64,000 nt of DNA. Origin: Thermococcus zilligii AN1. Lineage in GTDB: Archaea; Methanobacteriota_B; Thermococci; Thermococcales; Thermococcaceae. Shown here in pieces: positions 5,270 through 8,767 of this stretch. The notes beneath the pieces were generated by a model. That model saw nothing but the letters and a program-made list of their open reading frames with translations, was not told where the DNA came from and made no database searches. The stretch spans positions 868,001 to 932,000 of the forward strand of contig NZ_AJLF01000001.1 of NCBI RefSeq assembly GCF_000258515.1, in the 5' to 3' direction. Position 1 is the stretch's first letter. Every line of letters starts with the position of its first letter. The position numbers were made by a program, and so were the translations under genes.

Positions 5270-5770
5270 TCAGTCTTCTTTCCCTTCCTCTTCCGGCTTT
5301 TGTTGGGGCTCCATCTTAATGACGTAATCAGCAGCATTTTGAAGTGCCACAGAAAAGCCGGGCTCGACCCCTATGACAACGGTCTCTTTGCCCCTTCTTT
5401 TTGCCTCAATTATTATCGGAAGGAAGTCGGCGTCACGGGAGGCCAGGGCAATAACGTCGACATCGGAGTTGTATACCATCTCCATTGCCTCTATGGCCAC
5501 TCTCACGTCGGTGTCCCCCGCCACTATGACCGGCTCAAGCCCCTGGTTTACCACTGCCTCTATCAGCCCCTGGGGGGCGTACTGGTTGAGGATAACCTTG
5601 GCTACTCTAACGTTCCCTATCCTCCTGAGGGCGCTGAGGATGTCCTCGAGCTTTATGTTGAACTCCTTTCTGAGTATGTTGGGGCCATCAATGATGAGGC
5701 CTACCAGCTTCGATGGGCTCTCTTCCCTCTCCTCCTTTTTGCGAAGCATTGAAAAGAACTTCTCCTTCAT
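5270..5770 (-). CDS. NYN (PIN-like) domain protein, intact acidic site
   Basis: A 166-residue NYN/DUF88 (LabA-like) protein of the PIN nuclease superfamily, probably an RNA-directed nuclease. The predicted metal ligands are present: D28 and N31 in IIDGPN, D86 and D88 in GDTDV, and D113 and D115 in SRDADF. The N-terminal 20 residues are charged and probably flexible, as is the E/K-rich tail after residue 155. Its ATG overlaps the stop of the upstream paralogue (ATGA, 5767-5770), so the two are co-translated. The natural target RNA is unknown. Confidence 0.85.
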   Translation of the reverse strand: MKEKFFSMLRKKEEREESPSKLVGLIIDGPNILRKEFNIKLEDILSALRRIGNVRVAKVILNQYAPQGLIEAVVNQGLEPVIVAGDTDVRVAIEAMEMVYNSDVDVIALASRDADFLPIIIEAKRRGKETVVIGVEPGFSVALQNAADYVIKMEPQQKPEEEGKED

Positions 5771-6270
5771 TCCTCCCCACCGCCGAGGATTATCACGTAG
5801 TCCGCGGCGTGCTTCAAAGCCGCTGAAAACCCGGGTTCAACGCCTATGACGACTGTTTCCTTGCCCTTCTCTTTGGCCTTGAGGATAACGGGAAGAAACT
5901 CGGCGTTCCTTGTTGCCAGCGCTATAACGTCTATGTGCGGGTTGTATATTTCCTTCATGGCTTCTACAGCCAGCTTCACCCCGGTCTCTCCCGGGACTAC
6001 CACGGGTTCAAACCCCTGGTTTGAGACCGCCTCTATGAGCCCCTGGGGGGCGTACTGGTTGAGGATAACCCTGGCTACTCTAATATCGCCTATCTCGCTG
6101 AGCACCTCGACGATGTCTTCGAGCTTAACTCCCAGCTCTTTCCTCAGTATGTTGGGGCCGTCTATCAGGAGGGCGATTTTCTTTCCCCTCGAGACCTTTC
6201 GCTTCATCTGTCCAATTATCTCCATCCCGCTCTTTGTCACTGAAACTATCTTTTCCCAACCGCTGGGCAT
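5767..6270 (-). CDS. NYN domain paralogue with substituted acidic residues
   Basis: About 167 residues and closely similar to the next gene over its whole NYN domain (shared blocks LNQYAPQGLIEAV and GKETVVIGVEPGFS). Only the first aspartate is kept (IDGPN). The positions matching D86, D88, D113 and D115 of the neighbour read E, G, N and E (GETGV; TRNAEF), so metal catalysis is probably lost. Start: ATG 6270 behind GGCGGTG; an in-frame TTG at 6312 would add 14 residues. The pair looks like a tandem duplication in which one copy became a regulatory or structural partner. Confidence 0.75.
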   Translation of the reverse strand: MPSGWEKIVSVTKSGMEIIGQMKRKVSRGKKIALLIDGPNILRKELGVKLEDIVEVLSEIGDIRVARVILNQYAPQGLIEAVSNQGFEPVVVPGETGVKLAVEAMKEIYNPHIDVIALATRNAEFLPVILKAKEKGKETVVIGVEPGFSAALKHAADYVIILGGGEE

Positions 6271-6331
6271 CGCCGGCACCGCCGTAATGTTCAAACCATC
6301 GGGAGTAGTCAATAGGGGTTAAAAAAATTGC

Positions 6332-8767
6332 TCAGCGCAGAAGTCTCTTGTAGTAGTACCAGAGGCCCCGGATTATGTCGCGCACCTCGATCATTGTGAA
6401 GGTCTCCGTCCTGTCTATGAGCTTCGCGGTTTCTTCCCAGCTGTGGGCCTGGAGAACGCGGTATATCAAGAGCTTTATCTGCCTCTCATCGAGGTAGGGC
6501 TTCATCCACCCGTCGAGGAAGTAGAGCTTGACTATCGGCTTGACGACGTCTATGACCGTGTCATAGGTCAAAACCTTGCCCGTGAAAGCGTCCAGCCTCT
6601 TCTTCTGTATCTCCGTGAGGTGGATCGGGTAATCCACGGCCTCGCCGAAGGGCGTCTCGAAGAGCCAGCGCGCGATTTCCGGCTCAAGCTCGCGGTGCGT
6701 ATCACTTAACCACTCGGTAAACCTGATCCTGAACTCGTCGTTGGCCTGCTTTATGAGCCCCTTCGCCCTCTCGCTTGTTGCCTTGAGGACTATTGCCGTA
6801 AACTCGCCGCTGACAGGGTTTCTCGTGGGGCTGAGGTGCACAGTGGCAAAGCCGTTCCTGACCCAGAAGCGGGCAAGCTCCTCGCTGGCACCGAAGCCTG
6901 AACCAATCCAGTCGAGGCCCTTCTCGCGGGCTTCTTTCTCGAGGAGCTCTAAAGCCTTGCTCCCAAGCCCCATGTCCATGGCATCGGGGTGCGTCGCTAT
7001 TCTAACTATGCGGTAGCCCTCAAGCCTTGCGAACTCTTTCAGGTAGTGGTGCTTGACCATCATATCCGGAATTATGTTTCCGCGCGGCTTGTAGCCAGCG
7101 GCCATCTTCTCTATGACGTCCTTTGGTATGTTCCCTTCCTTGGCGATCTGTATCGCGGTCACTATCTTGCCGTTCTTGAGCCTCAAAACCCTCGCTTCGT
7201 GATGGGGTGCATCCGCCAGAAGCGCCACGTCGCTCGGCCTGTTGCGGTAGTGGGCTAAGATGTAAATTCCAATGAAGTGCCTCAGGTCATCCCTGTCGTT
7301 CTCAAACCAGTCGTCGAGATCCGGTTCCTCAAGGTACACCTCCCCCTTCTTTATCAGCTCGTAGTCCTCCTCCGTGAGCTCGACGGGTTCAGCGTCTAAG
7401 AGGAGAACATCGAAGAGCCACTTCTCGATGGGGTCGTGGTCGGCGTAGCGGATCGGCTCGTCCATGTGGAGCTCCTTAAAGTTCCGTTTCTCTCCAGCTT
7501 TCTTGAGGAACTTGACGGAGAAACCCCTTCCAGCGCCCTCGTAGCCGTGTATTGTCGAGGAGTAAACCACGCGGGGCTTGTTGAGGTATTTGTGGAGTAT
7601 CGGCACGTGGATTCCCGCCGCTTCGTCGAGGATGTAGAGGTCTGCGCTCTTCTTGTAGCCCTCCGTGGGGGGATAGTAGCGCAGGCTGATTTTCCTCGCG
7701 TAGAGCCCCTTTATGAGGCCTTCCTCCTCAACAGCGCGGGGCTTGAAGCCGAGCTTTTCAAGGGCCCTCCTGGCGAAGCGGAAAAGGGACTGGACGTTTT
7801 CAGGCTCGGGGGCGGTTACAATTATGCGCGTGCGCTTTTTCAGGGCAAGGGCCAGACCAACCGCCGCTATTCCAACGGAAACGCTTTTGCCCCTCCCCCT
7901 GTCGGCGGTAACGACAAGCATGCCCTCTTTCTCAACGAGCTCTTCAAAGGCCCTGAGAACTTCGACCTGCCCCTCCGTGAGGGCCATCTCGTAGAGCTCC
8001 CTGGGAAAGAGAGCCTCCTCCGGGATTGGAACCCCCTTCCTGCCCTCTATCTTCGCCTGGCTCTTGCTCTTATTTGGCTTCTTCCTTATCTTCCCTTCCT
8101 CGGTTACGATGTAAATCCCCTCGTGCTCCGTGAACTTCCTTATGAGCCTCCTGTTGAAGCGCTTCTTCACGTCGTCTATCGTGTAGGGCGGGGTTACCAG
8201 GCTCTTGTGGAAGCCCGTCCACATGTCCTTCCACTTCTTGAAAGGGTGAGCGAGAATGAATATCAGCCCCCCGCCCCTGACCGTCTCGATGATCCTGCCG
8301 AGGTCGTTGGGGGAATAGTCGTAGCTCATGTCTAAGATCAGAAGGTCGTAAGTCCTCCCGAGTATCTCGCGGGTGTGCTTGAAGGTAACCGCCTGAACGT
8401 TAACCTCAGAACCCGCTAAGACGTCGAAGTGCTTTCTAAAGGCCTCATAACGCTTCCTCCCGAAGGTTTCCTCGCCGAGGGCATCGGTAGCGTAGAGAAC
8501 CTCGATTTTATTCTCGCTCTCATCCCTGAGGCGCTTCTTAACCAGCTCATCCAAAATCCCGCTCAGAACCCTCGCCGAAGCACCGGCGAGAATTCCGGCC
8601 AGTTCCGCCTTTCTCTCGGTGTCACCTTCAATGACTATCATTCTCCTGTGGAAGTTCTCAAGGGCCTGAGCGAGGGCAGTCTCGGTGAGCTTGAGCATAC
8701 CGTCATTAACCTTCTCGCCTTTGGCGTAGTCTCTCACGTCCTTATCGAAGCGGACCTTAACGGTCAT
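6332..8767 (-). CDS. tmcA: tRNA(Met) cytidine acetyltransferase TmcA
   Basis: An 811-residue RNA cytidine acetyltransferase that makes N4-acetylcytidine using acetyl-CoA and ATP. In Thermococcales this modification is abundant in tRNA and rRNA and supports growth at high temperature. Order of domains: an N-terminal DUF1726-like domain (about 1-200), an RNA helicase-like ATPase with Walker A GRGKS (291-295) and Walker B DEAA (381-384), a GNAT domain near residue 600 (RIATHPDAMDMGLGSKA), and a C-terminal tRNA-binding tail. Length matches the family. It is divergent from the peptidase gene at 8890. Confidence 0.96.
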   Translation of the reverse strand: MTVKVRFDKDVRDYAKGEKVNDGMLKLTETALAQALENFHRRMIVIEGDTERKAELAGILAGASARVLSGILDELVKKRLRDESENKIEVLYATDALGEETFGRKRYEAFRKHFDVLAGSEVNVQAVTFKHTREILGRTYDLLILDMSYDYSPNDLGRIIETVRGGGLIFILAHPFKKWKDMWTGFHKSLVTPPYTIDDVKKRFNRRLIRKFTEHEGIYIVTEEGKIRKKPNKSKSQAKIEGRKGVPIPEEALFPRELYEMALTEGQVEVLRAFEELVEKEGMLVVTADRGRGKSVSVGIAAVGLALALKKRTRIIVTAPEPENVQSLFRFARRALEKLGFKPRAVEEEGLIKGLYARKISLRYYPPTEGYKKSADLYILDEAAGIHVPILHKYLNKPRVVYSSTIHGYEGAGRGFSVKFLKKAGEKRNFKELHMDEPIRYADHDPIEKWLFDVLLLDAEPVELTEEDYELIKKGEVYLEEPDLDDWFENDRDDLRHFIGIYILAHYRNRPSDVALLADAPHHEARVLRLKNGKIVTAIQIAKEGNIPKDVIEKMAAGYKPRGNIIPDMMVKHHYLKEFARLEGYRIVRIATHPDAMDMGLGSKALELLEKEAREKGLDWIGSGFGASEELARFWVRNGFATVHLSPTRNPVSGEFTAIVLKATSERAKGLIKQANDEFRIRFTEWLSDTHRELEPEIARWLFETPFGEAVDYPIHLTEIQKKRLDAFTGKVLTYDTVIDVVKPIVKLYFLDGWMKPYLDERQIKLLIYRVLQAHSWEETAKLIDRTETFTMIEVRDIIRGLWYYYKRLLR

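Follow-up and report, generated by a model that had tools for sequence, protein, structure and literature searches.

The NYN proteins closest to those described here are the NYN domain of MARF1, VPA0982 (2qip) and a CRISPR-associated NYN RNase of B. fragilis, each either part of a larger protein or an enzyme on its own, and each with an intact acidic site. Superposition places D358, D426 and D452 of MARF1 on D14, D92 and D115 of VPA0982 and on D13, D118 and D143 of the B. fragilis protein (PMC11346440). Mutation of MARF1 D426 and D427 is reported to reduce activity strongly (PMC6294520), and the D13A variant of the B. fragilis protein to abolish it (PMC11346440). The MARF1 NYN domain is reported to be monomeric in solution (PMC6294520), so dimerization is no rule of the family. 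The available portions of the MARF1 and B. fragilis accounts describe no paired dead copy (PMC6294520, PMC11346440). The archaeal members are modeled in NCBIfam as TIGR00288, a hypothetical equivalog that still carries this status despite its presence in many archaeal families, and the enzymes of archaeal RNA decay are incompletely known; the term TIGR00288 was not found in the literature covered, most subscription journals falling outside its scope. The ring of the archaeal exosome combines an active RNase PH subunit, Rrp41, with an inactive paralogue, Rrp42, which would be a precedent for a dead paralogue that helps an active subunit within an RNase complex, although fold and chemistry differ and the complex considered below is a putative one. 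Inactive nucleases have also evolved repeatedly among the Dis3/RNase II proteins and persist as RNA-binding proteins, although the branch concerned is fungal and the exonucleases to which it belongs have a different fold (PMC8097288).

The window, a 64,000-nucleotide stretch of the Thermococcus zilligii AN1 genome, contains two adjoining genes for NYN proteins, which we call copy A (upstream) and copy B (downstream) and whose features are collected in Table 1. Copy A is 167 residues long when read from the likely start, the ATG at 6270; a TTG at 6312 is also possible and would add 14 residues (181 aa), and a Met shortly 5′ of a WE[K/R] motif is common to the 20 A copies listed. Both proteins score above the curated cut-off of TIGR00288 (211.1 bits for A and 210.3 for B vs 178.45) and cover nearly the whole model, and both match Pfam NYN (PF01936; 81.7 and 86.3 vs 24.2). 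Because the NCBIfam model gives the two copies one name, the dead copy is invisible in annotation. A search of the window's genome with TIGR00288 returned no match beyond A and B, and a PADLOC search for defense systems gave two weak matches for copy B and no match for copy A. The initial annotation had called the genes clear duplicates coupled through an ATGA overlap; the overlap is present, and the duplicate relationship is borne out by a mean A-to-B identity within one genome of 69.4% (range 63-76%) and by the single tandem duplication in the tree described below.

Table 1. Positions of the gene pair, its neighbor and the residues discussed (numbered within the window)
Feature	Position	Strand	Remarks
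tmcA, tRNA/RNA cytidine acetyltransferase	6332..8767	minus	TmcA_N, NAT10_TcmA_helicase, GNAT_acetyltr_2; directly upstream of A
Copy A, NYN protein, acidic site dismantled	5767..6270	minus	ORF; TIGR00288 and NYN matches
Copy A residues 1-28, N-terminal segment common with single-copy relatives, lost in B	6187..6270	minus	
Copy A E95-T-G97, replaces D-x-D	5980..5988	minus	
Copy A K106 (alignment position 98)	5953..5955	minus	
Copy A N122-A-E124, replaces D-A-D	5899..5907	minus	
ATGA, stop of A and start of B	5767..5770	minus	4-base overlap
Copy B, NYN protein, acidic site intact, 166 aa	5270..5770	minus	ORF; TIGR00288 and NYN matches
Copy B D86-T-D88, acidic pair intact	5507..5515	minus	
Copy B D113-A-D115, acidic pair intact	5426..5434	minus	
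Copy B E122 (alignment position 123)	5405..5407	minus	
Copy B R125 (alignment position 126)	5396..5398	minus	

The acidic site of copy B consists of D28, D86, D88, D113 and D115, and the equivalent residues of copy A are D37, E95, G97, N122 and E124 (167-aa numbering). The five acids that had been assigned to the downstream copy, and the E, G, N and E assigned to four of these positions upstream, are thus exact. The description of the upstream site as dismantled holds for the D-to-G and D-to-N changes, which remove the acid, and not for the two D-to-E changes, which keep it. When VPA0982 is aligned to the family, its core aspartates map onto D28, D88 and D113 of copy B, given a presumed three-residue offset from the entry numbering. 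Judged by the core aspartates of an active NYN protein (MARF1 D358, D426 and D452), copy B has all three (D28, D88 and D113, each D in 89/89 genomes), as do the three studied proteins, whose fold it is predicted to share, and we infer that it is an RNase. Copy A retains D37 and has G97 and N122 at the other two positions in 89/89 genomes. Because Gly and Asn here replace metal ligands that are conserved in the studied NYN nucleases, copy A is very probably no nuclease.

The predicted structures suggest that loss of the site in copy A has left the fold intact. The copy A model (pLDDT 89.5, pTM 0.84) and the copy B model (pLDDT 88.6, pTM 0.82) contain the core elements in the same order, and the A model matches VPA0982 (2qip; Z 18.5, rmsd 2.3 Å over 136 residues) and MARF1 (5yaa, Z 18.5, 2.6 Å over 136; 6fdl, Z 18.3, 2.5 Å over 136), with all subsequent structural matches at Z 9.0 and below. 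As modeled, copy A is a complete NYN fold and no remnant. Residues 1-28 of A are predicted to form a β-hairpin at low confidence (pLDDT 65-73), and residues 1-20 of B have a pLDDT of about 50.

The arrangement is conserved across the family Thermococcaceae. The protein family was found in 89 of the 94 genomes searched, and pairs were gathered from all 89 (29 from the loci of the first search, the window's genome and 59 collected afterwards). In each of these genomes, a single A and a single B adjoin on the same strand. The acidic site reads D-D-D-D-D in all 89 B copies and D-E-G-N-E in 88 A copies, with T-E-G-N-E in the remaining one (G030, locus L104); the four substitutions are identical in 89/89 A copies and missing from B in 89/89. 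Strict co-occurrence and conserved inactivation, as expected of an active/inactive paralogue heteromer, were therefore found in every genome with the family. Mean identity among 88 genomes is 86.7% for A and 89.3% for B. The median dN/dS is 0.034 for A and for B, with dS close to saturation (median 1.17 and 1.20; 344 estimates for A and 576 for B, from pairs that reach 85% identity in A and also in B, at dS of 0.1-1.5, among 88 genomes with G030 left out). Copies A and B are under equal, strong purifying selection. The initial annotation had read copy A as a pseudo-enzyme, conserved beside an active twin, and had proposed checking the substitutions across all Thermococcales, since changes confined to this genome and drifting would have pointed to a pseudogene. 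The 89/89 conservation and the dN/dS of ∼0.034 in both copies support the former description well and reject the latter. That copy A is a decaying pseudogene is extremely improbable: a one-base frameshift occurs in one of the 89 A genes (G030), set against retention in all 89 genomes under a constraint equal to that on B. The same four catalytic changes, fixed family-wide beside an intact twin, make the pair a clean natural experiment.

The G030 frameshift lies right after the IDGPN motif and is also the source of the odd first letter T; it may be a sequencing error or a recent loss. A stop in copy A of G024 was considered as a second interruption and rejected, being an ordinary stop at the C-terminal end. 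Among the five Thermococcaceae genomes without the family, completeness is 73-82% in four and 96% in the fifth, G076, where A and B may be absent together.

The invariance of the A site, in which two of the changes keep an acid and none appears to be drifting, would also be expected if copy A were still an enzyme, one that uses metal differently or acts on another substrate through a site remodeled to D-E-G-N-E. We regard this as quite unlikely. Two of the three core ligands, those equivalent to MARF1 D426 and D452, are Gly and Asn in copy A, and the studied NYN proteins are reported to lose much or all of their activity when such acids are mutated (PMC6294520, PMC11346440). The A-specific acid at alignment column 99, moreover, lies at a helix end away from the strand ends that bear the site, as judged from the topology.

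The tree (83 rows) groups the A copies (support 100/99), the B copies (99/98), A with B (92/77, the weakest of the four nodes) and places outside these groups (96/89) the single-copy relatives, which belong to the same class, a topology that points to one tandem duplication on the Thermococcaceae stem. The acidic site is intact in 15/15 single-copy relatives from four sister families; 16 intact rows had been collected, and 15 remained once L001 was dropped. This contaminant had appeared, with L108, as a possible extra copy in G091, a MAG filed as Thermococcus; it lies on an Archaeoglobus-like contig, matches named Archaeoglobus records at up to 98%, is probable contamination and was not counted. 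The N-terminal segment of copy A resembles that of the single-copy relatives: a profile of their 15 N-termini gives a median of 10.2 bits for A (88 rows) and of -0.4 bits for B (89 rows), the 99th percentiles for shuffled sequences being 5.2 and 4.5 bits, and part of the A rows fall within the range of shuffled sequences (minimum -0.3). The losses are thus complementary, copy A having kept the ancestral N-terminal segment and copy B the catalytic site.

Elsewhere in the archaea, relatives were sampled from across the domain, and 150 of these 200 genomes have a family match. Outside the Thermococcaceae pairs, 122 of 133 rows (some genomes occur twice) read D-D-D-D-D, a signature that copy A lacks even though TIGR00288 treats A and B alike. 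The other 11 rows are degenerate or partial and were set apart. Among them are D-D-H-H-R (3 rows, lineages f14 and f63), D-E-D-N-E (2 rows, f14), D-H-D-N-N (1 row, f63) and two partial matches. Lineages f14 and f63 (L210, L211, L213, L216-L218) have two non-adjacent degenerate copies and no intact family member in 3/3 genomes. Lineage f37 (L214, L215, L264-L266) has an intact copy and a non-adjacent second copy reading D-D-D-N-D in 5/5 genomes, its D-to-N change falling at the position equivalent to N122 of copy A. In lineage f19 (L212, L256-L259), the sole family copy reads D-K-E-S-A in 5/5 genomes. The degenerate sites of these lineages indicate that the site was lost several times in the family, and the lone copy of f19 indicates that a dead NYN protein can exist without an active counterpart from its own family, which speaks against a simple rule that the dead copy regulates its twin.

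Such cases bring into play the possibility that A and B are independent of each other, B being an ordinary NYN RNase and A a stand-alone RNA-binding protein derived from a dead nuclease, an origin also proposed for pseudonucleases of the RNase II type, with the operon as their only link. Degenerate copies evidently persist alone (f19), beside a second degenerate copy with none intact (f14 and f63) or elsewhere in the genome from the intact copy (f37). Copy A also has an N-terminal segment of its own, and adjacency and equal constraint fit two separate proteins of one operon as well. Against independence, A and B are unseparated in 89/89 genomes, with reading frames that mostly overlap (a start codon allowing the 4-base overlap is present in 52/89), and complementary losses together with the reciprocal charge reversals described next are unexpected for unrelated functions. 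On balance, we consider independence rather unlikely.

Eleven alignment columns cleanly separate A from B. Position 98 is K/R in A (89/89) and E in B (89/89), with E/D in 15/15 single-copy relatives and 120/122 other intact archaeal rows. Position 123 is E in B (89/89) and K in A (89/89), in the single-copy relatives (15/15) and in the other intact rows (122/122). Position 126 is R in B in 84/89 genomes (G/S in 5) and E in A (89/89) and in 115/122 of the other rows. Charges conserved archaea-wide are thus reversed in A at position 98 and in B at position 123, so that both positions are positive in A and both negative in B, and opposite across A and B. Two successive helices of the fold carry positions 98 and 123/126 near their C-termini. 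The 98/123 pattern is just what a salt bridge spanning the interface of a former homodimer would produce, and pairing within each chain (A98 with E126, B98 with R126) would fit the charges nearly as well.

The complementary loss of N-terminus and site, taken with the reciprocal charge reversals, favors a working pair. The reading that we prefer, by a little over an even chance, is that A and B are a nuclease and a pseudonuclease that work as one unit, probably a heteromer. From co-occurrence, adjacency, mostly overlapping genes, complementary losses and charge reversals, all of them indirect signs, we infer that A and B bind each other. The ancestor would have been an archaeal NYN endoribonuclease, presumably a homo-oligomer, whose gene was duplicated in tandem on the Thermococcaceae stem. 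Copy B retained the catalytic site with its metal ligands but not the N-terminal segment; copy A retained that segment and the fold, and of the three core aspartates that bind metal only one is left in it. An A-B heteromer, co-translated, would be the most likely working form, in which B would cut RNA and A would serve as a non-catalytic subunit that binds RNA or a partner. The initial annotation had likewise suggested a heteromer, with one subunit regulating the other or positioning RNA for it; RNA binding by A is plausible, A may bind or position the RNA, and a regulatory role would be a more speculative one. If real, the heteromer would offer a small and testable example of a duplication splitting an enzyme into catalytic and targeting subunits, and both Thermococcus kodakarensis and Pyrococcus furiosus are open to genetic work. 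In the literature covered we found no account of a paired dead and active NYN protein in Thermococcales; subscription journals were mostly outside this scope, and absence is unproven.

A more specific version of the preferred working pair takes in the charge pattern and the neighboring gene, and we offer it tentatively, as improbable in its full form. Copies A and B would be an obligate heterodimer derived by splitting a homodimeric RNase into catalytic and targeting subunits, held by a reversed salt bridge and acting in the RNA pathway of TmcA. Bridges between K/R98 of A and E123 of B, and between E98 of B and K123 of A, would disfavor the homodimers, and the pair might act at high temperature on acetylated RNA, for example in its turnover or processing; these two elements share the doubtful standing of the whole. 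The tmcA gene lies within 700 bp upstream of the pair on the same strand in 67/89 genomes, some loci having short upstream DNA. By genus code the counts are 58/58 in the window's genus, 1/2 in g2, 7/7 in g5 and 1/1 in g6, with 0/9 in g3 and 0/12 in g4, two codes in which the copies still adjoin. Adjacency of A and B is accordingly kept in six genus codes, two of them without tmcA beside the pair. No tmcA was seen near single-copy or other archaeal loci of the family, within the short loci available. Right after the tmcA stop of the window comes a run of seven T (positions 6321-6327, read on the minus strand), a possible archaeal terminator; since, in sense orientation, it stands between tmcA and A, separate transcripts are possible.
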